A stretch of DNA of 64,000 nt from Shimia sp. Alg240-R146 (GTDB lineage: Bacteria > Pseudomonadota > Alphaproteobacteria > Rhodobacterales > Rhodobacteraceae): the NCBI RefSeq assembly GCF_947331465.1, contig NZ_CAMZOK010000002.1, positions 1 to 64,000 of the forward strand, read 5' to 3'. Positions 35,329 to 62,235 of this stretch are shown here, in pieces (within the stretch, counting starts at the first letter, position 1; each line of letters starts with the position of its first letter). Below the pieces are notes generated by a model. The model saw only the letters and a list, made by a program, of their open reading frames with translations. It did not search any database and was not told the origin of the DNA. The position numbers and the translations under genes were made by a program.

Positions 35329-35383
35329 TACTCCGCGAGGGGACGGCGAGCCGTAAATTTAGGGGAACCAGGGAGGAAACCCA

Positions 35384-36373: not shown

Positions 36374-36386
36374 TATCACTCCCGAG

Positions 36387-36421
36387 AAAAGGGGCGGCGT
36401 TCCATTTGCGTCGCCCTTTTT
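36387..36421 (+). terminator. partial terminator between rhaS and rhaT
   Basis: AAAAGGGGCGGCG pairs with CGTCGCCCTTTTT across a 9-base loop, with two G-U pairs, and the right arm ends in a T run. It comes 13 bases after the rhaS stop. It would lower transcription into rhaTPQ relative to the binding protein. Confidence 0.7.
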
Positions 36422-36468
36422 CAAACGAAGGATGTGCCCTTGGCGGGCCTTGCGGCGGGGATGCGCAA

Positions 36469-39985: not shown

Positions 39986-39989
39986 TCTG

Positions 39990-42440: not shown

Positions 42441-43964
42441 TCACGCGGTGCCGACCGGCGTTTGGTCCGGGAGAATATCCGTTGGACGGCTCTCAATGTA
42501 GCCCTGCAAAAGCGCTCGGGTTTCTGCGGACTCTGGCGAATCAAACAGGTTCACCATTTCGTCTGGGTCCGCTTCAAGATCGTACATTTCGCCGGCTCCT
42601 GAAATCAGGTCCATCGTCAATTTATGGGTTCTAGTGCGCACAGTGCGCAACTCCAAAGCCACGCCAACACGCCCGGGCAATAGGCCCCATTCGTTGCGCG
42701 CAAAGTCGCGGGTTGCGTCCCCTTCAATAAGCGGCCGCAAGCTTTCGCCGTGCTGGGTTATTTGTGGGTCAGCAGAACCATAGTCAAAGAAGGTGGGACC
42801 CAAATCGAGGGTCGAGACGGGCTCATCTACAACTTTGCCAGCCGGGACACCGGGTCCTTTGACGATCATAGGGACTTTCAACAGCCCTTCGTAGTGCATG
42901 GGCCCCTTTAGGATCAGCCCATGATCCCCCATCCAGTCGCCGTGGTCAGAAATGTAGATGACGATGGTGTCTTCATCGAGCCCTTCCTCCATCAAAGTGT
43001 TCATGATCCGTCCGATCTGGTGGTCGATGAACGCGATCTGGCCATAGGTATTGGCGATAATCTCGCGCAGTTGCTCGTCGGTTTGGGGAGGAATCCGGCT
43101 ATACGCTTTGCGAATGTCGGCAAATTTCGGGTCCGCTGGCTCGCCCTCCATCGCGGCTTCATGCCACCAAGGTTTGCCCTCATATGACCGCGTTCGGTTC
43201 TCTGGTAGGTCGACCTCCGCAGGATCATGCAACCGCGACCACGGTTCGGGGCAATCAAAGGGGTGGTGTGGATCGGGAAAGCTGACCCATGTGCAGAATG
43301 GTTTTTCCGCGTCCCGTCCGTGCCGTAGCCACTCAATTGCACGGTCTGTCGTCCACGGAGTATTATGGTAGGCAACGGGGAGTTTGGAATGCCAGACCTG
43401 TGCGGCGCCCTTGGTGTCGCCTGCATTCTCCCACATCAGCTTGGTGCGCTCGTCCCCCTTACCGTCCATGTGATAAAAGCGTTCGTAGTGCTGGCCTGCG
43501 GGTGGTTTTTCGGGGGCCCACCAGTTGTGCCCAACCAACATGAGCTCAACATGATCAAAGCCCATGTAGGGGCCGAACCAATCCTCACTATAATTGGCGG
43601 ATGAGCGCAGGCATTCTGGTGAACCTGTGGGTTCATAGGTGTGATAGGTCGAGAAATGTGCCTTGCCAAAGTAGCTGGTTTGATAGCCCGCCGTCGCCAT
43701 GGAGCCCGCAAAGCCTTTTTCGCCAATCTCGGGTGGCAAATCGATCCCGTTGTCATGCACCCCATGCGTGCGGCAGAGCTGGCCGGTCAGGATCGACGCA
43801 CGTGCGGGCTGGCAGACAACCGAAGGGGTGATACAGGCATCAAAGACCGTTCCATCAGCCGCCATTTGGTCAAGGTGCGGTGTCTTGATGTTGCGCCCTT
43901 TGAACCCCATGAAATCGGCGCGATGCTGGTCGGATGATATGAGGAGGATGTTTGGTCTGCTCAA
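42441..43964 (-). CDS. type I sulfatase
   Basis: A 507-residue sulfatase of the alkaline-phosphatase superfamily. The N-terminal metal site is in ILLISSDQHRADFMG. The formylglycine motif C-x-P-x-R occurs as SVVCQPARASILTG, where the Cys is converted to formylglycine. Later metal ligands are in YISDHGDWMGDHG and KGPMHYEGL. It has no signal peptide, so it is cytoplasmic and acts on imported sulfate esters. It overlaps the tctA-like gene by ATGA, in an operon tctC-tctB-tctA-sulfatase. The substrate is unknown, but co-transcription with a carboxylate transporter suggests a sulfated, carboxyl-bearing small molecule. Confidence 0.87.
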   Translation of the reverse strand: MSRPNILLISSDQHRADFMGFKGRNIKTPHLDQMAADGTVFDACITPSVVCQPARASILTGQLCRTHGVHDNGIDLPPEIGEKGFAGSMATAGYQTSYFGKAHFSTYHTYEPTGSPECLRSSANYSEDWFGPYMGFDHVELMLVGHNWWAPEKPPAGQHYERFYHMDGKGDERTKLMWENAGDTKGAAQVWHSKLPVAYHNTPWTTDRAIEWLRHGRDAEKPFCTWVSFPDPHHPFDCPEPWSRLHDPAEVDLPENRTRSYEGKPWWHEAAMEGEPADPKFADIRKAYSRIPPQTDEQLREIIANTYGQIAFIDHQIGRIMNTLMEEGLDEDTIVIYISDHGDWMGDHGLILKGPMHYEGLLKVPMIVKGPGVPAGKVVDEPVSTLDLGPTFFDYGSADPQITQHGESLRPLIEGDATRDFARNEWGLLPGRVGVALELRTVRTRTHKLTMDLISGAGEMYDLEADPDEMVNLFDSPESAETRALLQGYIESRPTDILPDQTPVGTA

Positions 43965-45553
43965 GCTGCTGCTCCCTTGGATTTGCGTCCCGAGAAGATG
44001 ATGACCGCGACGGACATGAGGATGAAAATCAAAGCGATAGGGCTGTTGAATAAAAAGAATGGATCGTTGCCTGTGGCCGAATAGGCTTGTCGAGCAGTTT
44101 GCTCAAGGCTGCGCCCGAGAATGAAAGCAATCACAAAGGGCAGCGGAGAGATGGTCAGCACACGCATGATGTAGCCGAGGACGCCGAAACCAAGCGCGAA
44201 CCAGATCGCTTCGAGACGGGTTTCCTGCACATAGATCGCGGTGAGGGTCAGCAACAGGACGGCAGGGAGCAAAAGCGTTTTAGGGATGTTGATCATGAAC
44301 CCCATAGACCGCATGAACACGCCGCCGATTGTCCAGTTAATGACATTGGCGATGGTCATGCATGTGAAAATCCCGAATGCGATGACCAATTCGGGGTTCA
44401 CCACGTCGGGCGAAAAACGGAAGACGGCCGGGCCAGGGTTAAACCCGCCGATAGATTCAGCGGCAAGGATAAGGAATACGGCCGCTGCATTTCCCGGAAT
44501 GCCGAGAGACAACACCGGGATCAGGTTTGCGCCGGAGACCGCGCTATTTGCGGCCTCGGTCGCGGCGACGCCTTCGGGCGCACCATCTCCAAAATCCGGC
44601 GCATCATCGGATTTCGACTTCTGGTGCCTTGCTCGCCCGACCGTGTATCCGAGGGTCGCTGCCAGCGTTGACCCAACCCCAGGTAGTGCACCGATGCTTG
44701 TCCCAATTGCCGCGGAGCGGAAGATGGTCGGAAACAAGTTCTTGATGTCCGCCCAGTGAAGCTTTTGATCGCCGGTTTCGGCGGGCGCATGGACAGGTTT
44801 TGCACTTCCGGTGCTGCGCCAAATCTCTTCCAGCTCCTTGAAAACCGCCCCGACAATCAACACGCCGAGCACCGCGGTGGTGATCGGAAACCCACGCGAC
44901 AGGCCTTCTGCACCCATAGACATGCGCGGATAGAAGTCCTCGCCCGTGCCGACATAGACCGCCAAAAGCCCGAGGCCGATAGAGATCAGGCCTTTGCCGG
45001 CCGACCCGCCAATGACGGCCGCGATGAAGCTTAGTGAGAGGATCAGAAGCCCTGTCTTTTCCGGAAGATCCAAGTAGGCCTCAACTATGATTGCAAGGAA
45101 GGGCGCACAGACAAAAAGGACAATGTCGGAGAACGTGTCGCCAGACGCCGAGGAAAAATGCGCGATACGCAGAGCCTTTTTCGCCTGACCCTTCTGGGCC
45201 ATCGGATAGCCGTCCAGGGTGGTCATGAATGCATCAGGTGTGCCGGGGGTGTTGAACAAAATGGCGGGAACCGCACCGCCAATCGTGGCCCCCTTCATAA
45301 TGCCGATCAGGAAACCCATCACCGGCAGCAGAGCGTCGGGTGTGTATCCGAAAATCGAGATCAGGATGGGCAAGGAAATCGCCATCGCAAATGGCCCGGC
45401 GAGTCCCGGCGTTGCGCCGACAACAATCCCGAAGAGGAACCCGGCGAGAACCATCATGATCGTGACCGATACAGAAACCCCCAAAAAGCTAAAGGCTTCC
45501 GGACCCATAAAGACAGCCTGGATGCCAAGCCAGATGTAATCAAGAATGTCCAT
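43961..45553 (-). CDS. tctA: tripartite tricarboxylate transporter large permease, TctA family
   Basis: A 530-residue membrane protein with about 12 hydrophobic segments. TctA markers include GATPGLAGPFAMAISLP, GFLIGIMKGATIGGAVPAIL followed by FNTPGTPDA, and GIPGNAAAVFLILA. The start is the ATG at 45553, which overlaps the tctB stop. A TTG at 45556 is unlikely. With TctB and TctC it forms a secondary transporter using a binding protein. Confidence 0.92.
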   Translation of the reverse strand: MDILDYIWLGIQAVFMGPEAFSFLGVSVSVTIMMVLAGFLFGIVVGATPGLAGPFAMAISLPILISIFGYTPDALLPVMGFLIGIMKGATIGGAVPAILFNTPGTPDAFMTTLDGYPMAQKGQAKKALRIAHFSSASGDTFSDIVLFVCAPFLAIIVEAYLDLPEKTGLLILSLSFIAAVIGGSAGKGLISIGLGLLAVYVGTGEDFYPRMSMGAEGLSRGFPITTAVLGVLIVGAVFKELEEIWRSTGSAKPVHAPAETGDQKLHWADIKNLFPTIFRSAAIGTSIGALPGVGSTLAATLGYTVGRARHQKSKSDDAPDFGDGAPEGVAATEAANSAVSGANLIPVLSLGIPGNAAAVFLILAAESIGGFNPGPAVFRFSPDVVNPELVIAFGIFTCMTIANVINWTIGGVFMRSMGFMINIPKTLLLPAVLLLTLTAIYVQETRLEAIWFALGFGVLGYIMRVLTISPLPFVIAFILGRSLEQTARQAYSATGNDPFFLFNSPIALIFILMSVAVIIFSGRKSKGAAA

Positions 45554-46119
45554 CAAACGTCACCGTTGGGTGGGAGCAACAAGTCGTCGAAAGGTAGATC
45601 AAAAACGGCGATCAACACGACGACCGCGGCAATTCCTGTCAGCACGGCACGGCGGGACATCTTTCGCTCAACGATGGCGATAATCCCGCTGACCATGATC
45701 GTGCCGCCCATAACATAACCGATGTGCTTCCACACTGGCGTAGCGCGCAACAGGCGATACTCCAGCGGGTCTTCACGAAACAGGTTGGCGACTTCAACGG
45801 CGGCGGGCCCCGCAAACCGCATGATTGCAAAGCCGACACCAATCACCGCTACCACGCTGGCGACGAATTTGATCTTGCTTGGGCCCAAGGCCGGCTGATC
45901 TTCAGCATTGCGTTCGAAAACCAGTAACAATAGCCCGCCTAAAAGAACAAATCCTGCAGCGACGGTAGGAGCCAATGCGTCCCCGATGACGAATTTGCCT
46001 CGCGCGCGCTCGACGATCCCGGTTTTTGTGTCCAAGGGGATCCATATAAAGATCAGCACCAACGCGACCGCGACGCAAAATAGTCCGACGTAAAGGTTAG
46101 ATCGCGACTTCTCGGGCAC
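45553..46119 (-). CDS. tctB: tripartite tricarboxylate transporter small permease, TctB family
   Basis: A 188-residue membrane protein with four hydrophobic segments, as in TctB. I chose the GTG at 46119, since AGAGGA stands 7 bases before it. Another in-frame GTG at 46140 is possible. It lies between a hairpin following tctC and the tctA start, and overlaps tctA by one base. Confidence 0.8.
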   Translation of the reverse strand: MPEKSRSNLYVGLFCVAVALVLIFIWIPLDTKTGIVERARGKFVIGDALAPTVAAGFVLLGGLLLLVFERNAEDQPALGPSKIKFVASVVAVIGVGFAIMRFAGPAAVEVANLFREDPLEYRLLRATPVWKHIGYVMGGTIMVSGIIAIVERKMSRRAVLTGIAAVVVLIAVFDLPFDDLLLPPNGDV

Positions 46120-46141
46120 GTGAGATTCCTCTGAATGCACG

Positions 46142-46168
46142 ACGGGCGTCCCTTTTCAGGACGCCCGT
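46142..46168 (-). terminator. hairpin between tctC and tctB
   Basis: ACGGGCGTCC and GGACGCCCGT form a perfect 10-base stem around a 7-base loop, just after tctC in the direction of transcription. No T-run follows. It is the third binding-protein gene in this window followed by such a hairpin. Confidence 0.65.
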
Positions 46169-46180
46169 GCAACGTTGTTA

Positions 46181-47131
46181 TTACTGAGATGCTGCTTCGA
46201 TCAGGACCGGAGAGTCGTTGAAGTTGCGCATGACAACCTCGTCAAGGTCGGCCCCTTGCAAGTTCATAGACCCGCCGAAAGCTCGTTCGATAAGTGCGCC
46301 GACTTCGGTAGAGGGATCCGAAGTCACCTCGGAAATCGCGGCAGCAATTGCATTGCGGGCTTCATCGGGCATGCCATCTGGCCCAGCAAACATAAAGATT
46401 GCATCACCATCAAAATCGACGCCCAAGTCCTTTAGGAGCGGCGCATTAGGGTCTTGGTTCAATGGTTTTGACATCGCAGACGCAAGGATCGTCAGATCAC
46501 CTGCTGCAACACCTGGACCTTGAATGCCGGCCATGAAACCAACGTCCATATCTCCGGCTGTCACGCCGTTCAGCACGGCCCGCCCGCCCTGAACCGAAAT
46601 GATGTTGAAATCTACGCCCTGCGCTTTTCCTAGCAGATAGGCAAGCTCGCCCAAACGCTGGCTCATCACGCCAAAGCGAATGTCCTCGCCGGCTTTGCCA
46701 GCTTGGATCATTTCATCAAATGATCCCCAGCCCGTTCCAGCACCGGCGATAATTCCCATCTGCGCACTGGCTGTGGTGGTAATCGGGGTGAAGTCTTCAG
46801 GCGACAGTCCAACGTCGGCTGTATAAAGGTTGTAGCCCAGCGACTCCATGACAACCATGCCAATCACTGTGCCATCGTTGGCCTCGTCTTTCATTTCCAA
46901 CAAGAGGTTCACACCGCCCTTTCCAGTTACCTGTTCGGGAATGAATTCCCATCCTAACCGGTTCTCAAGTTCAGCGGCGATCAAGCGGGCCTGAGTATCG
47001 GCACCACCGCCTGCCGCAAAGGCAATCATCAGCTTGATTGGGCCAGGCGGCGTCCAATCCTGCGCTTGAACTGACACGGCAGATACCGCGATAGAGACGG
47101 CCGCAGCGGCGGCTACAAACAACTTTTTCAT
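46181..47131 (-). CDS. tctC: tripartite tricarboxylate transporter substrate-binding protein, TctC family
   Basis: A 316-residue periplasmic protein with a signal peptide cleaved after about residue 23 (VSVQA). The Bug/TctC fold shows in IKLMIAFAAGGGADTQARLI, then VTGKGGVNLL and DFTPITTTASAQMGII. It binds a carboxylated ligand for TctAB. Its promoter region holds three overlapping GTTG-n6-CAAC repeats shared with the divergent marR gene. It heads the tctC-tctB-tctA-sulfatase operon. Confidence 0.9.
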   Translation of the reverse strand: MKKLFVAAAAAVSIAVSAVSVQAQDWTPPGPIKLMIAFAAGGGADTQARLIAAELENRLGWEFIPEQVTGKGGVNLLLEMKDEANDGTVIGMVVMESLGYNLYTADVGLSPEDFTPITTTASAQMGIIAGAGTGWGSFDEMIQAGKAGEDIRFGVMSQRLGELAYLLGKAQGVDFNIISVQGGRAVLNGVTAGDMDVGFMAGIQGPGVAAGDLTILASAMSKPLNQDPNAPLLKDLGVDFDGDAIFMFAGPDGMPDEARNAIAAAISEVTSDPSTEVGALIERAFGGSMNLQGADLDEVVMRNFNDSPVLIEAASQ

Positions 47132-47259: not shown

Positions 47260-47733
47260 ATGAACGACAAGACCCCACAAGACTTCAATCCCCAATTGAC
47301 GCAACTCAGCGGTTTCTTGACGTACCGCATTTCCCGTTTGCATCAAAAGCTCAACGCACAAGCCACCAAGATCCTTGCCGCAAAAGTTGGCGTTACGCTG
47401 AACCAGTGGCGCATGATTGCGTTCATTGGCGGCGCGGAGACCGTCACGGCATCCGAGTTGGTCCGATATACAGCGATGGACAAGGGCCTCGTCAGCCGCA
47501 ATGTCAAATCTCTTATACTGGAAGGGCTGGTTCGGTCGTCCGGGGATAGCAAGGACAGTCGGGTCCATCTGCTAAGCCTGACGCCTAAAGGCAAAGAAGT
47601 GTTCGATTTGGCCCTTCCTACGATGCGCAGACGCCAGCGGCAGCTGCAATCAAAGCTAAGCGACGATGATGTAAAGCATCTGCGCCAGATGCTGGAGGTT
47701 CTGGAAACAGCGGCCGAGGACGTGGACATCTGA
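47260..47733 (+). CDS. MarR-family regulator of the sulfatase/TTT genes
   Basis: A 157-residue winged-helix MarR protein. The DNA-binding region runs through VTASELVRYTAMDKGLVSRN and KSLILEGLVRSSGDSKDSRV, followed by a wing and a C-terminal dimer helix. It is divergent from tctC and shares three palindromes with it. Its stop overlaps the second sulfatase start (TGATG). It probably responds to the transported compound or its product. Confidence 0.87.
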   Translation: MNDKTPQDFNPQLTQLSGFLTYRISRLHQKLNAQATKILAAKVGVTLNQWRMIAFIGGAETVTASELVRYTAMDKGLVSRNVKSLILEGLVRSSGDSKDSRVHLLSLTPKGKEVFDLALPTMRRRQRQLQSKLSDDDVKHLRQMLEVLETAAEDVDI

Positions 47734-49151
47734 TGGCGTCAAATCTCTTGGTCATTCTGTCTGACGAACATCAGGCCCGCGCTATGGGCTGTGCCGGTCA
47801 TCCGTTTGTCAAAACACCGAATTTAGACGCATTGGCCGCCCGCGGCACACGATTCACTGATGCCTACACACCGTCCCCGATCTGCGTCCCAGCACGGGCG
47901 AGCTTCGCAACCGGGCAATACGCCCACCAAAATCGTCTTTGGGACAATGCGATGCCCTATCATGGGCAAGTTCCAGGTTGGGGACATTGCCTTCAAAAAG
48001 GGCGTATTCCTGTAGAGAGCATCGGCAAGCTGCACTACCGCAAAGTTGGTGACACCGCCGGTTTTGATCGAGAACATATCCCGATGCACGTCGCAGGCGG
48101 TGTCGGCATGGTGTGGGGCTCAATCAGGGCCGAGAGCGAACGTTTTACGCCAGCCCCCCGGATGTTGGGGGACTACATCGGGCCGGGCGACAGCAAATAC
48201 ACCGATTACGATCAGGCAGTGACCGACCGAACCGTGGATTGGCTGGCCGACCATGCGCAAGATGATCAACCATGGTGCCTTTACGTGGGGCTTGTCGCGC
48301 CGCACTTTCCGTTGGTCGTTCCGCAAGAGTTTTTTGACCTCTACCCACCAGACAGCCTGCCAGCGCCCAAGATGAACCCAAAGGACGGCTATGTGTGTCA
48401 CCCTTGGGTCGCGTTGCAGAATGCCCAGATGGACAGCGAATCGCGGTTTGAATCCGAAGCAGAGCGATGGGACGCTGTCGCGGCCTATTACGGGCTCGTC
48501 AGTTGGATGGACTACAACGTGGGGCGCATCATAGCTGCCCTTGAGAGCGCCGGTTTGTCGGATGACACCACGGTGATCTATTCCTCGGACCATGGCGACA
48601 ACGTCGGCACGCGCGGACTGTGGGGGAAGTCCAATCTATATCAGGAATCCGTTTCGGTGCCGTTGATTATGGCGGGACCTGAGCTTCCTGTCGGCACTTG
48701 TCACACACCGGTCAGCCTTCTGGACATTTCGGCCACGATCCCCGCTCATTTTGGGCTGGGGTTCGATTGCGAAGGGGAACCGCTGCCTGAAATAGCTGCC
48801 CGCGACGACGACCCCGATCGTGTTGTCTTTAGCGAATACCACGCACTTGGGGCGGTTTCGGCGGCCTACATGTTGCGCAAGGGGCGCTTCAAGCTGAACA
48901 CCTACATCGGGTTTGAATCGGAGATGTTTGATCTTGTCGCAGACCCGGAGGAGGCCACCAATATTGCCGCCGACCCGGATTACGCGGCGGTGATGGCCGA
49001 TCTCACTGCAGAACTGCACAAGATCATTGACCCCGAAGCGGTCAATGCCCTGGCCTTCGCGGATCAAGCCGCGATGATTGCAAGCTACGGCGGCAAAGAA
49101 GCCGCACTGAAACTTGGCGCACCGGGGGCAACACCCCCGCCTGAAACATGA
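47733..49151 (+). CDS. second type I sulfatase
   Basis: A 472-residue sulfatase with the formylglycine motif C-V-P-A-R in SPICVPARASFATGQ, the N-terminal LLVILSDEHQARAMG metal site, and SSDHGDNVGTRGLWGKSN further on. It differs clearly in sequence from the sulfatase at 42441-43964, so the two may act on different esters or positions. No signal peptide is seen, and a cytoplasmic site fits uptake of intact ligand by TctABC. It overlaps the following MBL gene by ATGA. Confidence 0.87.
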   Translation: MASNLLVILSDEHQARAMGCAGHPFVKTPNLDALAARGTRFTDAYTPSPICVPARASFATGQYAHQNRLWDNAMPYHGQVPGWGHCLQKGRIPVESIGKLHYRKVGDTAGFDREHIPMHVAGGVGMVWGSIRAESERFTPAPRMLGDYIGPGDSKYTDYDQAVTDRTVDWLADHAQDDQPWCLYVGLVAPHFPLVVPQEFFDLYPPDSLPAPKMNPKDGYVCHPWVALQNAQMDSESRFESEAERWDAVAAYYGLVSWMDYNVGRIIAALESAGLSDDTTVIYSSDHGDNVGTRGLWGKSNLYQESVSVPLIMAGPELPVGTCHTPVSLLDISATIPAHFGLGFDCEGEPLPEIAARDDDPDRVVFSEYHALGAVSAAYMLRKGRFKLNTYIGFESEMFDLVADPEEATNIAADPDYAAVMADLTAELHKIIDPEAVNALAFADQAAMIASYGGKEAALKLGAPGATPPPET

Positions 49152-49996
49152 AGCTCACTGTCCTCGGATCGGGTTCGCCAGAGGCCTACGTGCGCCGCGC
49201 ATCGTCCGGGTTCCTCTTGGAGATCGGCCAGAACCGCATCCTGTTCGATTGCGGCGGAGGCGTGTTTGACAACCTCATTCGATCCGGCCGACTTCCCCGT
49301 GATATCACCCATTTATTCTTCACTCATTACCACACTGACCACATGATGGATTATGCACGGCTCGTGCATGCTGCATGGGACGAAGGCGCCCCGCCCCTAA
49401 AGGTCTTTGGGCCCAAACCGCTTGCCGCAATCACTGAAGGGTATTTTGGACCAAACGGAGTGCTGAATAACGATCTGCGCGCACGCACGGAACTCCCACA
49501 AAGCCAGCAAGTCTGGGTCGCCCGCGGCGGCACCTTGCCCCGGCCATGGCCGGCACCGATCGTTACCGAAATCGAAGCAGGCTTCACCTATCAGGGTGAT
49601 GGTTGGGCACTGTCATCTGCGCAGGCCACTCACGCGGAACCGATCCTTGATTGCCTTGGATTCGCAGTGACATCAGCAGGCAAAAAGTTCGTTTATTCGG
49701 GCGATACGGGTATCAACGACGACATCACGGCCCTGAGCCGCGACGCGGACTTCCTTGTTCATTGGTGCTACCGCGGATCGGGCGAGCAATTGCATCCGGC
49801 GACACAGGCGTTCTGCCCTGATCCTGCTCAGGTCGCGGAAATGGCGCGAAGTGGTGGCGTCAAACGGCTCTATCTCAGTCACTTCCGCGTGCATATGGAC
49901 AGCGAGGAAGGGCACCAAAAAGCGCTGGAGGATTTGGCGGCACGATTTGGCGGCGACGCAGGAATCCTCGAAGACCTCGACGTCTTTTACATTTGA
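49148..49996 (+). CDS. MBL-fold metal-dependent hydrolase
   Basis: A 282-residue beta-lactamase-fold hydrolase of the RNase Z/ElaC-like branch. The opening LTVLGSGSPEAYVRRASSG and FFTHYHTDHMMDY (HxHxDH) are typical, with later His/Asp ligands in FVYSGDTG and YLSHFRVH. It is coupled to the second sulfatase by ATGA, so it probably acts on the desulfated product, for example an ester or lactone. It converges on the dehalogenase gene with only 5 bases between the stops. Confidence 0.82.
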   Translation: MKLTVLGSGSPEAYVRRASSGFLLEIGQNRILFDCGGGVFDNLIRSGRLPRDITHLFFTHYHTDHMMDYARLVHAAWDEGAPPLKVFGPKPLAAITEGYFGPNGVLNNDLRARTELPQSQQVWVARGGTLPRPWPAPIVTEIEAGFTYQGDGWALSSAQATHAEPILDCLGFAVTSAGKKFVYSGDTGINDDITALSRDADFLVHWCYRGSGEQLHPATQAFCPDPAQVAEMARSGGVKRLYLSHFRVHMDSEEGHQKALEDLAARFGGDAGILEDLDVFYI

Positions 49997-50001
49997 CGTT
50001 T

Positions 50002-53000
50002 CTAGAGGTCGATTTCGACAATCCCGCCCGGTTTTGCCGCTCGCGATTGACACAAGATCATTGCGTCTTGGCGCTGCGCATTCGACAGAACGAAATCGCG
50101 GTGTTCAACCTCGCCGGATTTCAATCCGCATTTGCAGACCCCACAGATCCCGTCGGAGCATTTCAGATCAATCGGATACCCGTTTTCGATCAATACATCG
50201 GCGGCCGATTTGTCGGCTGGTACCAATAAATCTCGACCGGATTTGGAGAGCCGCAGCGTGAAGTCGTGGTTTTCATACTCGGGCAGTTCGGGCACCGAGA
50301 AATACTCCAGATGCCGCGCCTCTTCGAGAAATCCCTGACGCTCAGCAGCTTCGATGACACCGTTCATGTAGCGGTCAGGTCCGCAGGTATAGACGTGCCA
50401 GCCGGGGCGATAGGTGGCCAGAATTCTATCCAGATCGGCCCGCGTGTTTTGATCCGAGAAATGGAATGTGACCTTGTCGGCCCACTCAAAACCCTTCAAA
50501 TCATTTATGAATCCTGCATCTACGGCTTTGGATGCCGAATAATGCAATTCAAAGTCGATGCCTTTTGCATGGCATTCATGGGCAAAGGCGATCATGGGCG
50601 TGACGCCGATCCCCCCGCCCATCAAGAAGTGCTTTGTGCCGTCTGAGGCCAGCGGAAAATGGTTGATCGGCTTTGAGACGAAGATCTTGCGACCTTCGGA
50701 GAAGATGCGGTGCAAAAGTTTGGACCCACCGCGACCTTCATCCTCGCGTAACACGCCAATCTGGTATTTGGTCCGATCCGCCGGATCCCCGCTAAGCGAG
50801 TATTGGCGGAAATATTCGGGGGCCACAACAATGTCCAAATGCGCGCCTGCGGTCCATTCGGGCAATGGTTCTCCGTCAAGCGACGAGAGTTCGTATTTGG
50901 TGACGCCGTCCGTCATTTTCTCGGCCTTTGTCACTTCGACACGGATTACGGGGGCAACACCGGGCGGGTTGACGCGGTGTTTGGTTGGCGCGGCGTCGCC
51001 CGCGTCCAGCCGTCGCTGGTATTCCTTGGCGGTGATCAACGCCTGATAAGCTTCGATCCCTTTTTCCCGGTCCATTGGAAATGGGAATGGCCAGGGCGGC
51101 GGGGCAAGATCGGCGGGATAAACGGCAAGTGTCTGGTCCGCATAGTCGAGTTTCAGGTCGGTTTGAAGTTGTCGGTAATTTGGCGGTTCTTTTTGCGTAT
51201 TGATCATCTCGCAAGAGCCGTCCGGCGCCCATTTCAGATCCCACCACCAGCGTTTTTTGGGATTGATCTGGCCGTGGCCAACGACATCGTCCAGTTTGGC
51301 GAGGATGCCCGCCATGGCGGGGACATTCATCGCCATCCAGCGCAAAGGTTTTTCGTGCTGTAGACCTTCGACATTCCATGGGCAGGTTTTCATACAGCGG
51401 CCACACATCGCACCGCCTTTTTGCGTAAGACGATAGGTCGTGCACTTCTGGCTGTCTGACTTCCAGATCTCGTAGCCATTGAACATCAATTTGGGCCCAG
51501 CCGTGATTGCGCCAGACGGACATTCGCGGGCGCATTTGTTGCAGGCTTCGCAAAAGGCCTGCATGCCGAAATCAATCGGTTTGTCGTGCGCTAAGGGCAT
51601 ATCCGTCGTGATCACGCCGGACTTGAGGCGCGGCCCAAGAAAAGGGTTCACGATGACCTCACCAATGCGGCTGACTTCGCCAAGGCCGGACAAGAGCAGA
51701 AGCGGCGGATGCACGACCTCGCTTTGCACATTTGTATGGACCTGGGCCTTATACCCAAGGTTGCGGATGTGTTTGGCAACGATCCCGCCGAGGAGCGAAA
51801 ACCGCAAATAGGCCCGCATCGATTGCACGACGGCGATCCAGTCGTCCCCCGATGACCCCTCGGTTGTGTCAAATCCCTGATCAATGATCATACTTATGGC
51901 ATTGGGGTGTTCGGGCGTGATTGGATCACCATCCGCATCGTGGGAATACCAGACCCATTCGGGACACCGCGAGATGCCGACGGCATCTGCCCCTAAGAAG
52001 TAAGCCACTGCCTTGATGCCATTCGCATTGGCCTGAGCCTCCAGCGCATCAGGGCTGATCGTCCCGGCATGGTCACCATCTTGCAGAATAAGAAATGCCC
52101 CAAGCGGTCGCCGCAACGCCTGCGCCAGTGGGGATTTCTGGGCGAAATATCCGCCGCGCGAAGCTTCCTGATTGGCTTTGCCCATATCTCCGAACTTTGA
52201 GCGCGCGAACATGTCTGCGCGTTTGGGCACGCGGGCGACGCGGTCTTCGTCAATATAGGTCGTCGGCTTGTCGACGCGCTTTAGGGCCTCGAATGGATGC
52301 GGGCCTTTTGCATAGGGGCGCTTCGCGAAAGGATCGAGCGTCAACGCGTTTTTCGCTGATCCGATCCCCAAGGACCAAGCAGCGCCTTTTGTCAGCGATG
52401 CAGGCTGGTCTGAAAGTGGCGCGAGAGGTTCGTCAGGCGTGATCTCGAAATCCGTTGTGACAACGGAGACCTGAAACCTGTCGCCGACAAATGGGTTAAC
52501 CAGATCACCGTTTTCAACCGAGGCCAGACCCGAGGCGACAGTCAGCCAGTTCAGATCAACTTCTGAAGCTGACCCACTGTGGGCCCGCGCGTCGAACCCC
52601 AAAACCCGCAGGTAATTTGCCACGACCACAGCGGTTTCCGAGGCACGCACAGAGGCGCGATGCGCCTGCGCATCTTGCATCCACACGAAGCCCGCCTCAT
52701 CGGGTTCCGGATCTCGGCCGAAAGGATAGAGGAGCACGATAGCGTAGCGATGCCCCTCCATCGAAGTTGGCGGCGCCTCCATGCTGTCTTTGAGGTCGGC
52801 CATCGTCGTTTCGATACCTGCCGCCAGCGATTTGACCTGCTTGGTCCGCAATTCTTCGGCAAGGAGGCCAATCCCTGGATTTCGGATCGGCTCAGCCAGA
52901 TGCGCCGACGGGTCCATGCGCGCAATGGCGACCATCGGCGCGTCCTGAAAATAGGCGAAAGACTTGATGTGGCGCGCGCGCTCAGTCGGGTCTTCTGGGC

Positions 53001-53229
53001 ATTTCGCCTTGGTCTTGCTGATAAACCCGTCTCGGATTGCATCCAGCATCGCCTGATATTCGCCGAGTGCGTTGACGAGCGAACTGGGGCGATCACTTTT
53101 GTCGTAATCGACGCGCTGCATCGGTGACACGTCATTAGTGATGCGCCCCGGCTGGCGCTTCATCCGCTCGAGCGGGAACGGACCCAAATGAAAGGCGCGC
53201 TTGCGGTTAGAAAAGATTGGGGCAGTCAT
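50002..53229 (-). CDS. rdhA: self-sufficient catabolic reductive dehalogenase fused to an NAD(P)H reductase
   Basis: A 1075-residue cytoplasmic protein that resembles BhbA and NpRdhA, the catabolic reductive dehalogenases. It would remove halogen from an aromatic ring with a corrinoid cofactor, using electrons from its own reductase. There is no Tat signal and no rdhB anchor nearby. Parts seen are two related cobalamin-fold halves (about 50-270 and 375-555), two 4Fe-4S motifs (C560/C563/C566/C570 and C596/C609/C612/C616), a flavin domain with RQYS (808-811), a nucleotide loop GGGIGVTP (871-878), and a plant-type 2Fe-2S domain (C1024, C1029, C1032, C1060). Y428 and K486 lie where the catalytic Tyr and Lys of NpRdhA are expected from memory. 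It follows the LigM-like gene by 21 bases. A corrinoid-dependent epoxyqueuosine-type reductase is less likely, given length and fusion. Confidence 0.85.
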   Translation of the reverse strand: MTAPIFSNRKRAFHLGPFPLERMKRQPGRITNDVSPMQRVDYDKSDRPSSLVNALGEYQAMLDAIRDGFISKTKAKCPEDPTERARHIKSFAYFQDAPMVAIARMDPSAHLAEPIRNPGIGLLAEELRTKQVKSLAAGIETTMADLKDSMEAPPTSMEGHRYAIVLLYPFGRDPEPDEAGFVWMQDAQAHRASVRASETAVVVANYLRVLGFDARAHSGSASEVDLNWLTVASGLASVENGDLVNPFVGDRFQVSVVTTDFEITPDEPLAPLSDQPASLTKGAAWSLGIGSAKNALTLDPFAKRPYAKGPHPFEALKRVDKPTTYIDEDRVARVPKRADMFARSKFGDMGKANQEASRGGYFAQKSPLAQALRRPLGAFLILQDGDHAGTISPDALEAQANANGIKAVAYFLGADAVGISRCPEWVWYSHDADGDPITPEHPNAISMIIDQGFDTTEGSSGDDWIAVVQSMRAYLRFSLLGGIVAKHIRNLGYKAQVHTNVQSEVVHPPLLLLSGLGEVSRIGEVIVNPFLGPRLKSGVITTDMPLAHDKPIDFGMQAFCEACNKCARECPSGAITAGPKLMFNGYEIWKSDSQKCTTYRLTQKGGAMCGRCMKTCPWNVEGLQHEKPLRWMAMNVPAMAGILAKLDDVVGHGQINPKKRWWWDLKWAPDGSCEMINTQKEPPNYRQLQTDLKLDYADQTLAVYPADLAPPPWPFPFPMDREKGIEAYQALITAKEYQRRLDAGDAAPTKHRVNPPGVAPVIRVEVTKAEKMTDGVTKYELSSLDGEPLPEWTAGAHLDIVVAPEYFRQYSLSGDPADRTKYQIGVLREDEGRGGSKLLHRIFSEGRKIFVSKPINHFPLASDGTKHFLMGGGIGVTPMIAFAHECHAKGIDFELHYSASKAVDAGFINDLKGFEWADKVTFHFSDQNTRADLDRILATYRPGWHVYTCGPDRYMNGVIEAAERQGFLEEARHLEYFSVPELPEYENHDFTLRLSKSGRDLLVPADKSAADVLIENGYPIDLKCSDGICGVCKCGLKSGEVEHRDFVLSNAQRQDAMILCQSRAAKPGGIVEIDL

Positions 53230-54690: not shown

Positions 54691-55557
54691 CTAGGTGGCG
54701 TGTGGCGTTTGAATAAACAGAGCCATGAGTTCGCGAGCCGAGCCAACTTTTAGCTTGCGATAGGCTCGCTGCCGCAACGTTCGAATGGTGGCTTCTGAAA
54801 CATCCAACTGCAATGCCGACGCGGCGATCGATCGTCCGTCTAGAAGAAGATCACAAACCTCTGTTTCGCGCGGCGTCAGGCCAGCAAATCCCCCTACGTT
54901 GTTGTCCCTCAGCCGAGTGGCATTGGCCCCATCGTCGATCCCATGACGCGCGGTACCGACGATCTGATGCCTGAGCCCGATAAGGCCGTGGACGATGGGT
55001 AGAACCTTGCAGAGCGCTTCATATTCATTTTCATCGAGCAATCCATCTGCTGCGCTGCGCAAATAGAAGGACCGAAGCCCCGAGCGACCGTCTCTCGACG
55101 AAACGGCCACGCGTTCGAGCACACCGTTTCGTTTGTAGATTTCTTCGCGTTTGCTACCCGGCTTAGGGTGCCATCGGTCGATATGGACACCATCTGACCG
55201 CGCTTCCCGTATCTGCGAGATGATCCGGGATTGGGCGTCTTTTGAGCCAAGGATCAATGCGGCATCGCGTTGAAACCAGTAACTGGTGATGCGCCCAGAC
55301 CAAAACGACAATGCTGGGTTCGGACGGGACAAGTCTGCGATGTGGTAGGCCCCAAAATTTTCAATGCGAGCTATGCCCGAAAGAAATTGAAGAGCCGCGC
55401 TCCCAAATTCAACCTTTGGCGCGATCGCTATCAAACGCTGCAACCCGCTCAAATCCTCGTCCCAAGAAGCTGGAAACTCTTGCATGAGCACTTCAAGAGC
55501 AGTTTTTAAAAAGAAAAACAACCCCAAGGCCACTTCGTCCAGGGTCTCGATGCTCAA
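54691..55557 (-). CDS. LuxR-type transcriptional regulator
   Basis: A 288-residue protein with a C-terminal GerE/LuxR helix-turn-helix: GLTPRETEVCDLLLDGRSIA then LDVSEATIRTLRQRAYRKL. The N-terminal 200 residues resemble no domain I recognise with certainty and may be a GAF-like or other ligand-binding fold. The frame opens with TTG at 55557, and an ATG at 55485 would shorten it by 24 residues. It lies between the Rieske gene and the LigM-like gene on the same strand, so it probably regulates the demethylase-dehalogenase unit. Confidence 0.78.
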   Translation of the reverse strand: MSIETLDEVALGLFFFLKTALEVLMQEFPASWDEDLSGLQRLIAIAPKVEFGSAALQFLSGIARIENFGAYHIADLSRPNPALSFWSGRITSYWFQRDAALILGSKDAQSRIISQIREARSDGVHIDRWHPKPGSKREEIYKRNGVLERVAVSSRDGRSGLRSFYLRSAADGLLDENEYEALCKVLPIVHGLIGLRHQIVGTARHGIDDGANATRLRDNNVGGFAGLTPRETEVCDLLLDGRSIAASALQLDVSEATIRTLRQRAYRKLKVGSARELMALFIQTPHAT

Positions 55558-55815: not shown

Positions 55816-56904
55816 CTATTCGCGTTGGAGCGACCGGCCCTCTGCCTTGAGTTTCCTATTAAGGATTTGTCGGACCTTGATGCCGGCCCCATCCGCCCCG
55901 AGTGTCACCTCTAGGAAACCCAATCCACGCGGATCGTTGGCGACGCTCTCCTGCAATTTTTCAAGCAGGTGTTTGTCTTCGTCAAACGCAGCCGTGACGC
56001 TGGCGCGAGTCTTTTCGGCCACCTCGTCGGTTAGCGACGGCACGTCAAACGCAGCCATCCAGAAGTAATGGGTCTTGCCGCGTTGCGCGGGCGTCACGAT
56101 GTGGCATCCGCGCACGATAAAGTCAGACCGTTTGCCCGCGTCGGGATTAGGATCATGAACATTCCAATCCGAAAACGAAATCGCCAGCGACGGCATCCGG
56201 CCCTTTTGAACACGCTTGATGGGTTTGTCCTCAGGGAGGCCCATACCTGCACAAAACAGTGGAGAGAGCGGCGCGAGGTCGAATTCCTGCTCGTAGCAGA
56301 TGGCTTCACCTTCCATGTATGTGTCGGGCGCGGTGATCCAATCGTCCTGCTTGAAGGTGTTCTTGTGCAGGAACGCGATGTGCGTGAGGTCCAGCACATT
56401 TTCGCGTATCAAAACCCAGTTGGCGGCAACCTCATAATACCCATGCACTGGCGTCCAGTCAGGATCAATCTGATAGCCGACTTCGGGCGGATCGCAGTCA
56501 ATGGCATCTTGGTCCCCCATCCAGATCCAGATGTAGGCCCCGGCCTCGCGCACGGCAAAGGACGGGATCTCGGCGGTTTTGGGTTTCATATGCTGGGTGG
56601 GGGCCTTTGTGCAGCGGCCAGCCGTGTTGAACTCCATCCCGTGGTAGGGACAGATTATCTTGTCATCGCGCACATGGCCTTCGGAGAGCGGTGCCCAACG
56701 ATGCGGGCAGCGATCATAAAGAGCTGCTGGCGTGCCATCTTCCAACCGATAGAGAACGACGGGAGTTTCCAGCAACCAACGTGCCAGCGGTTTGGTCGTG
56801 ACCTCGTCGCGGTGGGCAGCGACCCACCACATGTTGCGCGGGTAGTTGTCTTCCAGCATCCCGTTGGGGATCGTCTGACCGTTGGTCCGGCTTTCATGTT
56901 TCAT
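55816..56904 (-). CDS. Rieske non-heme iron oxygenase, VanA-like
   Basis: A 362-residue oxygenase large subunit. The Rieske 2Fe-2S ligands are C66/H68 and C85/H88 (CPHRWAPL then CPYHGM). The mononuclear iron triad candidates are D172/H175/H180 in DLTHIAFLH. It matches the vanillate O-demethylase/phthalate dioxygenase branch, which cuts methyl ethers oxidatively or hydroxylates rings. The ATG at 56904 follows GGGAGG and overlaps the panB stop. A separate VanB-type reductase is not visible nearby, so electrons may come from elsewhere, perhaps from the reductase half of RdhA. Confidence 0.87.
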   Translation of the reverse strand: MKHESRTNGQTIPNGMLEDNYPRNMWWVAAHRDEVTTKPLARWLLETPVVLYRLEDGTPAALYDRCPHRWAPLSEGHVRDDKIICPYHGMEFNTAGRCTKAPTQHMKPKTAEIPSFAVREAGAYIWIWMGDQDAIDCDPPEVGYQIDPDWTPVHGYYEVAANWVLIRENVLDLTHIAFLHKNTFKQDDWITAPDTYMEGEAICYEQEFDLAPLSPLFCAGMGLPEDKPIKRVQKGRMPSLAISFSDWNVHDPNPDAGKRSDFIVRGCHIVTPAQRGKTHYFWMAAFDVPSLTDEVAEKTRASVTAAFDEDKHLLEKLQESVANDPRGLGFLEVTLGADGAGIKVRQILNRKLKAEGRSLQRE

Positions 56905-57767
56905 GGTGCATCCTCCCTGTTCAAAAGCGCTGCAAAACGCTCGATCTCTTCGGGTTTCATTTGGTAAGAGTGTTCGGCGTCCGGAAAGCGCCCCGATCGC
57001 ACATCATCGGCATAGGCCGCGAAGGCCTCGGTCGCGTCTTGCGCGAGGTTGGCATAACGCTTGGCGAACTTGGGTTTGAACGTATCGAAAGCACCAAGCA
57101 AATCGTAGCCGTTAAGCAGCTGACAGGTGCCCGCCGCACCGGCCCCGATAGAAAAGGTGAAGATGTCCACTGCCGCATCCACGGCTTTGCCGACCTCAAA
57201 GGGCATCGCTTCGATCTCAAGTCCGATGGCACCAGCGGCTTCGATCGCGCGGGCATCGGCGACAATCTCCATCGCGGCCTCGGCTGTGCGGCCCTGCGTC
57301 TTGAAGCCACCCATCTGGTGGACTTTGTGCGGCAGAAGGCCAACGTGGCTCATCACCGGAACACCGGTGTCCGCGACGGCGCGGATAATATGGGCACCCT
57401 CGCGACCCAATTGCAGCTTGAGAGCGTCAGCCCCGCTTTCCTTCATCATCCGAACCGCGTTCGTGACCGCCAGTTCCGGCGTCGAGTAGGACCCATAGGG
57501 CATCGAGACGAGGCAGAGCGTATTCGGTGCCCCGCGCCGGACGGCCTGCGTGTGCATGATCATCTGTTCAACGGTCATTGCCAGCGTGTTCTCATGGCCA
57601 TGCAACGTCATGCCAAGGCTGTCACCGACACCGACGATATCAACGCCCGCGCGTTCGGCCCAAGTGGCTGTCAGCACTTCGCCAACGGCAACCATGACCA
57701 GCCGATCGCCCGCCGCCTTCTTTGCGGCCAGCTCTGGCAGTGTCAGTTTCTTGCGGGTTGAGGTCAT
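56901..57767 (-). CDS. panB: 3-methyl-2-oxobutanoate hydroxymethyltransferase paralogue
   Basis: A 288-residue PanB family enzyme. The metal- and substrate-binding motifs GVGDSLGMTLHGHENTLAMT and MPYGSYSTPE are present, as is MSHVGLLPH further on. PanB transfers a hydroxymethyl group from methylene-THF to ketoisovalerate in pantothenate synthesis. Placement in a demethylation cluster, with the stop overlapping the Rieske gene, suggests a second role: either consuming C1-THF or condensing a pathway keto acid. No panC is seen nearby, so a pantothenate role is not favoured. Confidence 0.82.
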   Translation of the reverse strand: MTSTRKKLTLPELAAKKAAGDRLVMVAVGEVLTATWAERAGVDIVGVGDSLGMTLHGHENTLAMTVEQMIMHTQAVRRGAPNTLCLVSMPYGSYSTPELAVTNAVRMMKESGADALKLQLGREGAHIIRAVADTGVPVMSHVGLLPHKVHQMGGFKTQGRTAEAAMEIVADARAIEAAGAIGLEIEAMPFEVGKAVDAAVDIFTFSIGAGAAGTCQLLNGYDLLGAFDTFKPKFAKRYANLAQDATEAFAAYADDVRSGRFPDAEHSYQMKPEEIERFAALLNREDAP

Positions 57768-58347: not shown

Positions 58348-59451
58348 ATGGCTGAGATTGGACCCAACACCAGGTTGCGCGTATCGCCCTATTACGAGGC
58401 GACAATTGCGGAGGGCGTCACTGCCTTTTCTCCCTATAACAACATGCTCATGCCCGTCTCCTACGGGGATCCGGACCGGGAATATACCCGTTTGATGAAC
58501 GGTGTGTCGCAGTGGGATGTGAGTGTCGAGCGGCAAGTGGAAATCAAAGGCCCGGATGCCGCCCAATTGGTGCAACTCTTGTCCGTGCGGGACCTTTCCA
58601 AGATTGACGTCGGCAAAGGAAAATACATGCCGATGTGTGATCACCGCGGTGTTTTGATTAATGACCCCGTGGTGCTGAAACACGAAGACGGCATGTTTTG
58701 GCTGTCTATTGGTGACAACAACATCCTGATGTGGGCAAGGGCGATTGCTGCTGAACGCAGGCTAGATGTCGCGATTTGTGAACCGGACGTTTCCCCGATG
58801 GCAGTTCAGGGCCCCAAGGCAGAGGACGTTGTTGCCGCGGCCTTTGGTGATTGGGTGAGGGCGCTGAAATACTTCTGGTTCGCTCCAGCTGAGATCAACG
58901 GAATCCCCGTTATTATTCAACGCTCTGGCTATTCCAAACAGGGCGGGTTTGAAATTTACCTGCGGGACGGATCTCGCGGTGTCGAGCTTTGGAACATCAT
59001 CAAAGAGGTGGGGCAGACATGGGGCATCGGTCCTGGCAATCCCAGCCCGATTGAGCGGATCGAAAGCGGGCTTTTATCCTTTGGAGGTGATACCGATGAT
59101 CAGACTACCCCCTTTGAGGTTCGATTAGGCAAATACGTTGATCTGGACCTCGACGATGATGTGGTTGGCATTAAGGCGCTGCGGCGGATCAAAACGGACG
59201 GGATCAAACGCCAGCAGCTTGGGATCGTACTTGATGACGCTGATCGCCGCCCGGGACATGCGATCTGGCATGCCATCCAGCAGAATGGTCAGCCCATCGG
59301 GCACATGACTTGCGGGGCGTGGTCGCCGCGTGCGCAATCGATGATCGGCTTCGCTTTGGTAAACGTAGGCGCGGCAGTCGGAGACAAGGTCGATGTCATA
59401 CGCGGTGGGTTTCGTGACCCGGCAACGCTCTGCCAGCTGCCGTTCTTCTAG
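58348..59451 (+). CDS. DmdA-like GcvT-family demethylase
   Basis: A 367-residue GcvT-family protein resembling dimethylsulfoniopropionate demethylase DmdA over most of its length. Similar parts are SQWDVSVERQVEIKGPDA, DHRGVLINDPVVL, CEPDVSPMAVQGP, RSGYSKQGGFEIYL and PIERIESGLLSFGGD. DmdA moves a methyl group from DMSP to tetrahydrofolate. The neighbourhood (Rieske oxygenase, PanB, LigM-like protein) suggests another methylated substrate or a divergent DmdA clade. It follows marR by 12 bases. I do not assign the dmdA symbol, because the family has several clades with unknown substrates. Confidence 0.72.
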   Translation: MAEIGPNTRLRVSPYYEATIAEGVTAFSPYNNMLMPVSYGDPDREYTRLMNGVSQWDVSVERQVEIKGPDAAQLVQLLSVRDLSKIDVGKGKYMPMCDHRGVLINDPVVLKHEDGMFWLSIGDNNILMWARAIAAERRLDVAICEPDVSPMAVQGPKAEDVVAAAFGDWVRALKYFWFAPAEINGIPVIIQRSGYSKQGGFEIYLRDGSRGVELWNIIKEVGQTWGIGPGNPSPIERIESGLLSFGGDTDDQTTPFEVRLGKYVDLDLDDDVVGIKALRRIKTDGIKRQQLGIVLDDADRRPGHAIWHAIQQNGQPIGHMTCGAWSPRAQSMIGFALVNVGAAVGDKVDVIRGGFRDPATLCQLPFF

Positions 59452-60356: not shown

Positions 60357-61235
60357 CTATAGATCCGAAAAACCGTAAAAAGCCGCGGCGGTATCGCCCA
60401 ATACAGCTTTTTGCGCTGCAGCCGGAACCAACGATGTGATCGATTCCACCAAGGTGGCGTAGTCAGAGTACAGGCTATCGACCGGAAAATTTGACCCAAA
60501 CATGCACCGGTCAGGCCCGAATTGATCAAGGCATACTTCGACAATGGGACGTATGCTTTCGGTGGTCCAGTCATGGGCAAACATTCCAAAACCGGACAAT
60601 TTGCACACCACATTTGGCAGCGCGGACAAGCCCGAGAGTGCATCGGCCCATTGCCTCAATCCCTCTGGGCTTCTGTTATGCGGACTGCCTGCATGGCAAA
60701 GAGCGACTTGCGTGTCTGGCGCATTGGAAAGCACTGCAGCGGTTTTTGCCATCAATTCGGGTATCAATTGTAAATCAAACGACACTCCGCGATCGCCTGC
60801 CATTTGCAGCCCGCGCGCAAAAGAGGGGTCATCACGCAACATATTGGTGCCAGTCACTGCATCTTCTCCCGGCGCGCGGCCGACAATTTGGCGCACACCA
60901 CAAACCGTTGGCAGGGCTTGAAACGCGTCCAGTTTCGCCGAGAGGTCGGCTGCGGTGAGATCACAGAACACCACCTGCTTCATCGGCCAATGTGGATGTG
61001 CGTCTGCCACAGACTGCACCCATTCTGCTTCTGCCAACCCGTCTTCTGCACCAACTTGAATGTGCACAGATCCTTCAAAGCCTGCGGCCTTTGCATCGCA
61101 GCAAAATTCCTGGATCAAGAAGTCGCGTTGGATTGGGGCGGGATCACCAAAAAACCGCGTCTCGCCCTTGGCCATCAGCCACGGATAATGCACCGCTTTC
61201 AGATCCCACAGGTGGTGATGCGCATCAATTCTCAT
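60357..61235 (-). CDS. amidohydrolase 2 family, sugar-lactonase-like (COG3618)
   Basis: A 292-residue TIM-barrel hydrolase from the ATG at 61235. The opening MRIDAHHHLWDLKAVHYPWL is the signature of the L-fucono-/L-rhamnono-lactonase branch, with later metal or substrate His in FCDLTA and ALCHAGSPH. The conserved Asp region FGSNFPVDSLYSDYATLV ends it. It should open a sugar lactone. It overlaps the SnoaL-like gene by 11 bases and lies in a unit divergent from a sugar ABC transporter, which fits use of a deoxy-sugar or uronic-type sugar. Confidence 0.82.
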   Translation of the reverse strand: MRIDAHHHLWDLKAVHYPWLMAKGETRFFGDPAPIQRDFLIQEFCCDAKAAGFEGSVHIQVGAEDGLAEAEWVQSVADAHPHWPMKQVVFCDLTAADLSAKLDAFQALPTVCGVRQIVGRAPGEDAVTGTNMLRDDPSFARGLQMAGDRGVSFDLQLIPELMAKTAAVLSNAPDTQVALCHAGSPHNRSPEGLRQWADALSGLSALPNVVCKLSGFGMFAHDWTTESIRPIVEVCLDQFGPDRCMFGSNFPVDSLYSDYATLVESITSLVPAAAQKAVLGDTAAAFYGFSDL

Positions 61236-62235
61236 GGCCGGAAATTCCTGTTGTTCGCGCCAAAACATCGACACCTTGCTGGTTCCAAAAATGCAGTAGG
61301 TCGATGAAAATCCAGTTTTCTGCCAGCTTTTCCCCGTCGCGCCGATAGATGTCGATCACGCGAAACTCTCCGGTCTTGCCTGTCGCCGGCATGCCCATGA
61401 ACCCGCCAGAAGGGACGGCCGTGAAATTCGGCCAGCCAAAGAAGCCACCATAATGCCCTTCGGCCATGCGGCAGATGTGTTTTGTCTTGGAACGTTCGCT
61501 AAACCCTTCACGGAAGGGGCCGGAATGCTGTTTTGCATAGCGTTCAATTGTATAGGTCGCGCCGATGCCGCTTGGCCCCCACCAGATCATGTCATCATGC
61601 CACGTTTGGGCCAATTCATCCTCCAACGTCAGCCCGCTGTCCCATTGCCCAAGATCGGTGATCATCGCCTCAATCGCAGCCAGAGTTTTTTTACCCTCAG
61701 ACTCGGGCTGGGTTTCAAACAGCAAGCCGTCATGTGTCATCGGCCCCGGTTGCACCAATTGTGCGGCGGTTTGTTCGGGGAAGGGCGCAAGACCCGCTTG
61801 CATCATGAGGTGAGGAATGTCGAAATACATCGCGGTTTCGACAATCCTGTCGTCTTCAACGCGATGGAACGCGCAATAGCGCAGAAAGGCCATTTTGCCG
61901 GTGGGGCGTATCCCCAACCAAGGTTTGTCAAACAGCCCCATCAGATGCCCCATAGAGCACACCCAAGTGCCGCCCGGGTCATCGAACCGGTTCTCGGCGG
62001 CAAAGAAAATATCCATTCGGCGCTGCAGTCGCGTGAGGCTTTGGCGCAAGGGGGCCCAGAACTTTGCGGCAACCTCGTTTCCGCCCATAATCTCGTTGAA
62101 CGGGTGAAAGCCGCGCCAAGAGAGGTCGGCCGAACAGTGCTCGGCCATGACCGCGGCAAGCGATTCGGCGGGTGCGGCATCAAGATCCGCATAAAAATTA
62201 CGCACAATCTGCTTGGCGGCCTGCGGCGTTGTCAT
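61225..62235 (-). CDS. double SnoaL-like domain protein
   Basis: A 336-residue protein made of two related SnoaL/NTF2-like halves. The first half has NFYADLDAAPAESLAAVMAE and ends in IRPTGKMAFLRYCAFHRVED then FDIPHLMMQAG. The second half ends in MPATGKTGEFRVIDIYRRDG then WIFIDLLHFWNQQG. The shared TGK...F..I/H pattern shows an internal duplication. Related single-domain proteins are polyketide cyclases or small-molecule hydrolases/isomerases. Here it likely acts on the sugar lactone or its relative, next to the amidohydrolase. The function is inferred only from context. Confidence 0.72.
   Translation of the reverse strand: MTTPQAAKQIVRNFYADLDAAPAESLAAVMAEHCSADLSWRGFHPFNEIMGGNEVAAKFWAPLRQSLTRLQRRMDIFFAAENRFDDPGGTWVCSMGHLMGLFDKPWLGIRPTGKMAFLRYCAFHRVEDDRIVETAMYFDIPHLMMQAGLAPFPEQTAAQLVQPGPMTHDGLLFETQPESEGKKTLAAIEAMITDLGQWDSGLTLEDELAQTWHDDMIWWGPSGIGATYTIERYAKQHSGPFREGFSERSKTKHICRMAEGHYGGFFGWPNFTAVPSGGFMGMPATGKTGEFRVIDIYRRDGEKLAENWIFIDLLHFWNQQGVDVLARTTGISGHEN

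Follow-up and report, generated by a model that had tools for sequence, protein, structure and literature searches.

The window analysed here is the whole 64,000-nucleotide stretch at the start of contig NZ_CAMZOK010000002.1 of Shimia sp. Alg240-R146 (Rhodobacteraceae), and the element under study is a single frame on its minus strand which joins a reductive dehalogenase part (RdhA) to a module resembling phthalate dioxygenase reductase (PDOR; Table 1). Judging from its sequence, this RdhA-PDOR fusion very probably works in the cytoplasm as a catabolic reductive dehalogenase like BhbA and JtRdhA, with NAD(P)H as its source of electrons. It is preceded on the same strand by a gene for a LigM-like O-demethylase, and this gene pairing hints at the breakdown of methylated halogenated phenols. 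The fusion itself belongs to an established class (BhbA, JtRdhA), which the window copy extends; the pairing with LigM, a context that is not general among RdhA loci, is the more interesting point.

Table 1. Features of the RdhA locus and its surroundings (positions in the window; residue numbers refer to RdhA-PDOR; THF, tetrahydrofolate; Cys, cysteine).
Feature	Positions	Strand	Basis
RdhA-PDOR fusion (predicted self-sufficient catabolic reductive dehalogenase)	50002..53229	minus	Uninterrupted frame, 1075 codons/aa
Vestigial (non-catalytic) corrinoid-domain copy, residues 158-270	52420..52758	minus	hhalign of alignment slices
Functional corrinoid domain, residues 404-553 (S470, M471, Y474, K536)	51571..52020	minus	NpRdhA alignment; identical 93/93
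Two 4Fe-4S motifs, residues 560-619, and R600	51373..51552	minus	Fer4_7 and Fer4_16; 8 Cys kept 93/93
Phthalate-dioxygenase-reductase-like module, residues 761-1066 (FMN, NAD(P)H, 2Fe-2S)	50032..50949	minus	2pia 182.1 bits; Fer2 at 997-1064
LigM/DesA-like THF-dependent aryl O-demethylase, 454 aa	53251..54615	minus	Profiles, structures; ends 21 bp upstream of RdhA
LuxR-type (GerE) regulator	54691..55557	minus	PF00196
VanA-like Rieske oxygenase	55816..56904	minus	PF19112, PF00355
PanB-type hydroxymethyltransferase	56901..57767	minus	TIGR00222 over cut-off; 4-nt overlap with Rieske gene
GcvT/DmdA-like folate-dependent methyltransferase	58348..59451	plus	PRK12486 361.5 bits, under cut-off 410
Sulfatase, C-x-P-x-R motif, convergent to RdhA	47733..49151	plus	PF00884
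Metallo-beta-lactamase-fold hydrolase	49148..49996	plus	PF12706; 4-nt overlap with sulfatase
TctA, small gene, TctC: tripartite tricarboxylate transporter	43961..47131	minus	PF01970, PF03401; middle gene no Pfam match

The identity of the protein as a dehalogenase is well supported. It passed the reductive dehalogenase profile TIGR02486 (218.5 bits, cut-off 160.35), and a search of solved structures returned as best match NpRdhA of Nitratireductor pacificus (4ras, 6zxu), aligned over residues 4-743 in two blocks (4-109 and 159-743) with the same active site; for the C-terminal third, the best matches were self-sufficient P450 reductase modules and phthalate dioxygenase reductase (2pia). All the parts which the first-pass annotation had read in this frame, namely a dehalogenase part, two 4Fe-4S motifs, a flavin/NAD(P)H reductase and a 2Fe-2S domain, were indeed found: the 4Fe-4S ligands are C560/563/566/570 and C596/609/612/616, the reductase part carries an FMN-type RQYS motif at 808, GGGIG at 871 and CGPD at 949, and the 2Fe-2S cysteines are residues 1024/1029/1032/1060. 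With an AlphaFold model made from 47 sequences (mean pLDDT 79.1, pTM 0.70), the 14 best Foldseek matches were NpRdhA chains (TM 0.87-0.89 by target length), and the 15th was 2pia; the model is of low confidence in the 4Fe-4S and linker parts, so that its domain packing is unreliable.

The active site was compared across 98 loci, comprising the window, 12 genome-collection loci, the second copy of the same genome, 4 plasmid records and 80 of the 143 family genomes with a full-length match, the latter mostly from the top of the match list; some of the locus stretches end at contig ends. According to PMC10463259, the NpRdhA active-site residues F291, S422, M423, Y426, K488 and R552 are kept in JtRdhA. 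All six are present in the window protein, as F341, S470, M471, Y474, K536 and R600 by alignment with NpRdhA, and these residues, the eight 4Fe-4S cysteines and the four 2Fe-2S cysteines were identical in 93/93 aligned sequences, a set which includes both copies of this genome and leaves out five loci (L099, L102, L109, L146, L159) having no called open reading frame of at least 950 aa. The catalytic Tyr/Lys pair is thus Y474/K536 (Y426/K488 in NpRdhA), and not Y428/K486 as had been proposed: Y428 is conserved in all 93 sequences but is another residue, and position 486 holds a Lys in only 41 of the 93, the window's included.

A vestigial duplicated corrinoid domain that has lost this Tyr and Lys is described as a mark of catabolic RdhAs in PMC10463259. 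When residues 158-270 were compared with the functional corrinoid domain by hhalign, a probability of 99.4 was obtained, with 35% identity over 113 columns (0.9 for a control slice), and S and Q stood at the positions matching Y474 and K536; the duplicated N-terminal domain is accordingly that vestigial domain. As the first-pass annotation had stated, there is no Tat signal, residues 1-60 containing neither an RR pair nor a hydrophobic stretch, and no rdhB-like gene among the adjoining genes (the LigM-like gene and the metallo-hydrolase), to which that check was confined. A respiratory RdhA was rejected for the same reasons, no Tat signal being present and no membrane-anchor gene adjoining. 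The active site, the vestigial domain, the two 4Fe-4S sites and the lack of a Tat signal or adjacent rdhB together place the predicted protein among the catabolic RdhAs, and the FMN/NAD(P)H/2Fe-2S reductase at the C-terminus of one chain places it among the self-sufficient Rdh-PDORs.

Regarding the mechanism, homology to JtRdhA suggests that a hydride from NAD(P)H would reach FMN, from which single electrons would pass through the 2Fe-2S and the two 4Fe-4S clusters to the cobamide; the cobamide would then take Br or I from the position ortho to the phenolic OH, and Y474, held by K536/R600, would give the proton. Cobamide loading, activity and the halogen are what we infer by analogy for the window protein. 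It is plausible that the cofactor can be supplied and that the ring finds a sink, since CobT, which belongs to cobalamin synthesis, is encoded in the genome, as are PobA and PcaH, both over their cut-offs.

Several described enzymes offer points of comparison. JtRdhA of the marine bacterium Jhaorihella thermophila (WP_104007082) debrominates phenols with NADPH, also under air, and takes many bromo- and iodophenols but none of the chlorinated compounds tested, according to PMC10463259. By that description it resembles the window protein in being a marine Rdh-PDOR fusion with no Tat signal, a duplicated corrinoid domain and the same catalytic residues; by contrast, no LigM partner is mentioned in the sections of that paper examined. 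BhbA, encoded on plasmid pBHB of Comamonas sp. 7D-2 (WP_015585978, L076), is 47.6% identical over its full length and, as in the window locus, has a TctC-type gene, here directly adjoining, but it lies beside carbon-nitrogen hydrolase and protocatechuate 4,5-dioxygenase genes and on a separate branch of the tree. NpRdhA differs in having no fused reductase, PMC10463259 placing it in a clade without one. Ros_A3X954 of Roseobacter sp. MED193 is a marine roseobacter debrominase with no Tat signal, whereas its motif positions 283-345, as published (PMC13101508), imply a shorter and unfused protein.

Such fusions proved to be widespread. In a survey of 394 genomes of the family, 306 gave some match, and an essentially full-length RdhA match was found in at least 143, with 5 more partial only, among the 150 best matches listed; the weaker of the 306 probably concern the reductase part alone. 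A copy is carried by 22 of the 25 genus genomes (the present one counted), and 8 plasmid records hold relatives, BhbA among them, that align over 80% or more of the query. Ruegeria pomeroyi, Tropicibacter, Pseudovibrio and Jhaorihella are also among the organisms whose RdhAs appear in the Fig. 1 legend of PMC10463259. The genome itself encodes a second full-length RdhA-PDOR (G000:C2:547817-551017; L002, L015), 63% identical to the window copy. In the tree, the window RdhA falls in a clade of 11 (SH-aLRT 100) with L003-L010, L012 and L013, and the second copy outside it, grouped with a same-genus copy (L127) that shares its upstream neighbour, an FAH-type gene lying about 80 bp away in the Shimia locus; no LigM match was found in the stretch of this second locus that was examined. 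Since the enzyme is common in the family, and the genome has two copies of which the window's stands in a separate clade, the latter has the look of an accessory paralogue. The first-pass annotation was right as to the kind of enzyme, a self-sufficient reductive dehalogenase, and in error as to the residue numbers, NpRdhA as an example of the fusion, and the rarity of such dehalogenases.

The protein encoded just upstream of RdhA is named LigM-like only, because it fell under the cut-offs of both named NCBIfam equivalogs, LigM (470.9 bits, cut-off 580) and DesA (482.3 bits, cut-off 800), which represent the demethylases of Sphingobium SYK-6. It scored 420 bits against LigM structures, and its model (mean pLDDT 87.8) reached a TM of 0.91 to LigM (5x1k), with 44% identity by structure alignment. 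Its Y248, invariant in 24/24 rows, aligns with what we take to be the catalytic Tyr247 of LigM, and the residues which are presumably Tyr31 and Arg122 of LigM correspond to F37 and K127 (Lys). The model thus predicts a THF-dependent aryl O-demethylase fold with the catalytic Tyr. The Dmt dicamba demethylases, which are likened to the window protein here by chemistry, are known to demethylate a chlorinated methoxybenzoate with THF (PMC9404685).

A LigM-like neighbour accompanied RdhA in 3 of the 98 loci, namely the window, L012 and L011. The L012 protein is 91% identical to the window's and stands in the same order, on one strand and with the same 21-bp gap before RdhA; that of L011 is 78% identical and occurs with LuxR and TctC. 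The L011 RdhA lies outside the window clade, which rules out placing it there on account of the shared LigM, and a close LigM therefore accompanies two RdhA lineages. Other LigM-like proteins listed among the 394 family genomes were at most 48% identical, and this genome was the sole match for a close LigM in 25 genus genomes (E 1e-60) and 390 order genomes (E 1e-150); scans with LigM as query of the family, genus and order samples, which overlap, gave no further close copy, a rarity that holds at the limits used. The window LuxR or a relative was found beside RdhA in 11/98 loci, the window included, and in eight of these loci (L096, L101, L108, L109, L113, L117, L120 and L138) it is divergent from RdhA, at a distance of 118-202 bp; this divergent LuxR-type regulator is possibly the RdhA family's own.

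This context admits three readings, graded here among themselves, the high confidence stated above applying to the core dehalogenase claim. We favour ortho-debromination of a bromophenol, perhaps following demethylation. In its full form, which we advance tentatively and at clearly less than an even chance, RdhA would be expressed with the LigM-like O-demethylase and the pair would turn a methoxylated halophenol into a halogen-free phenolic acid. The substrate, for which a bromovanillate-like acid is a guess, may be imported by the Tct transporter; the LigM-like enzyme would move the methoxy methyl to tetrahydrofolate and free the phenol OH, and the product would enter the PobA/protocatechuate route. 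Gene order and recurrence suggest, with similar reserve, that LigM and RdhA share a substrate molecule, on which LigM is the first to act. To the same limited degree, LuxR-LigM-RdhA might be a mobile two-enzyme module, in which a methylated organobromine has its phenol freed by a specialised O-demethylase and is then debrominated aerobically by the fused RdhA.

A number of observations weigh against this coupling. The LigM-like protein scored below the cut-offs of both named demethylase models. Since a scan for promoters and terminators gave no excess over shuffles, co-transcription of LigM and RdhA is argued from strand and spacing. L011 and L012 were found through RdhA, and what they document is therefore the company of LigM with RdhA and not its exclusiveness. 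Furthermore, RdhA is separated from the LuxR-LigM pair by a transposase gene in L011, and in L012 LuxR is separated from LigM by genes for a transposase, an integrase and an acetyltransferase, so that mobile-element shuffling may have placed LigM beside RdhA in these loci; G+C gave no sign of an island in the window, being even at 0.53-0.59 over 38-64 kb. Finally, 95 of the 98 loci had no LigM-like match in the stretch examined, some of these being cut by contig ends.

The absence of LigM from most loci, the transposases of L011 and L012 and the many bromo- and iodophenols taken by JtRdhA (PMC10463259) are what would be expected if RdhA performed the same chemistry as a broad detoxifier or scavenger of bromophenols, LigM and LuxR being hitch-hikers brought in by insertion sequences and acting on another molecule. 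We consider this a serious contender, not far below an even chance; it accounts less well for the fact that in both the window and L012 a gap of 21 bp separates the end of LigM from the RdhA that follows it on the same strand, and that a LigM of 78-91% identity, though very rare in the samples, accompanies RdhAs of two lineages.

It is rather unlikely that the locus serves sulfated halophenols, with a sulfatase freeing the phenol, RdhA debrominating it and LigM being secondary. Sulfatase genes do occur near RdhA in 9/98 loci, and in L010 (2753-11228) a TRAP transporter, a sulfatase, an arylsulfotransferase-like gene and RdhA form a single strand run. This type of sulfatase was found within 5.2 kb of RdhA in 4/80 family-genome loci, where scattered copies would be expected to give about 0.2 within 8 kb by a rough post hoc model which assumes 1.2 copies per positive genome and concerns a gene picked after it had been seen beside RdhA. 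However, the sulfatase of the window is convergent, lies outside the RdhA run and is 27-29% identical to the L010 type; one of the four L010-type cases (L132) is on the opposite strand, and the loci of the sulfatase group are dispersed over the tree, with no more clustering than in shuffles. As a general rule the link is weakened, the L010 type being present in 185/394 family genomes but near RdhA in 4/80 loci. Two further loci have a sulfatase in the RdhA strand run: L004 (1687-11216), together with an arylsulfotransferase-like gene, TRAP transporter genes and a sulfotransferase, and L014 (2-4279).

That the protein is instead an epoxyqueuosine reductase (QueG) or another class III cobalamin-group reductase is very improbable: QueG belongs to the same class (PMC10463259) and gave a weak match (TIGR00276, 26.1 bits, cut-off 200), but the dehalogenase profile scored 218.5 bits, over its cut-off, and the six active-site residues of NpRdhA are kept, so that neither of the results named beforehand as fatal to the dehalogenase identity, loss of the catalytic pair or a best match to QueG, was obtained.

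If the favoured coupling of demethylation and debromination is functional, the natural substrate class would be O-methylated, perhaps sulfated, bromophenols, and part of the marine organobromine cycle would become testable with two defined enzymes. Taken with the sulfatase-linked relatives, it would mean that the fused RdhAs of marine bacteria are adapted to algal bromophenols with methyl and sulfate caps and not to free bromophenols; in the sections of the literature examined, the natural marine substrates of this family were not found to be established. Within literature searches covering few subscription papers, no paper was found joining reductive dehalogenase, sulfatase and bromophenol, or bromoanisole, demethylation, bacteria and bromophenol, and the pairing of a dehalogenase with LigM or an O-demethylase was not seen in the titles and abstract starts of the matches listed. 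Papers on Desulfitobacterium contain both reductive dehalogenase and O-demethylase terms (PMC3306737, PMC3727330); both activities in one organism are therefore known, in anaerobes.

Among the other neighbours, the VanA-like Rieske oxygenase, an oxygenase of the demethylating type, is oddly paired with a methylene-THF enzyme, the PanB-type ketopantoate hydroxymethyltransferase, and no separate reductase gene was found among the neighbours scanned. Further away, positions 32243-41683 hold a sugar catabolic block (aldolase-SDR fusion, xylose-isomerase-like gene, sugar ABC transporter, mutarotase-like open reading frame and FGGY kinase), which we take to be for L-rhamnose use. On the other side, a SnoaL-like-domain protein (61225-62235, two stretches matched) adjoins an amidohydrolase (60357-61274) that scored under the cut-off of the fucono-lactonase model.

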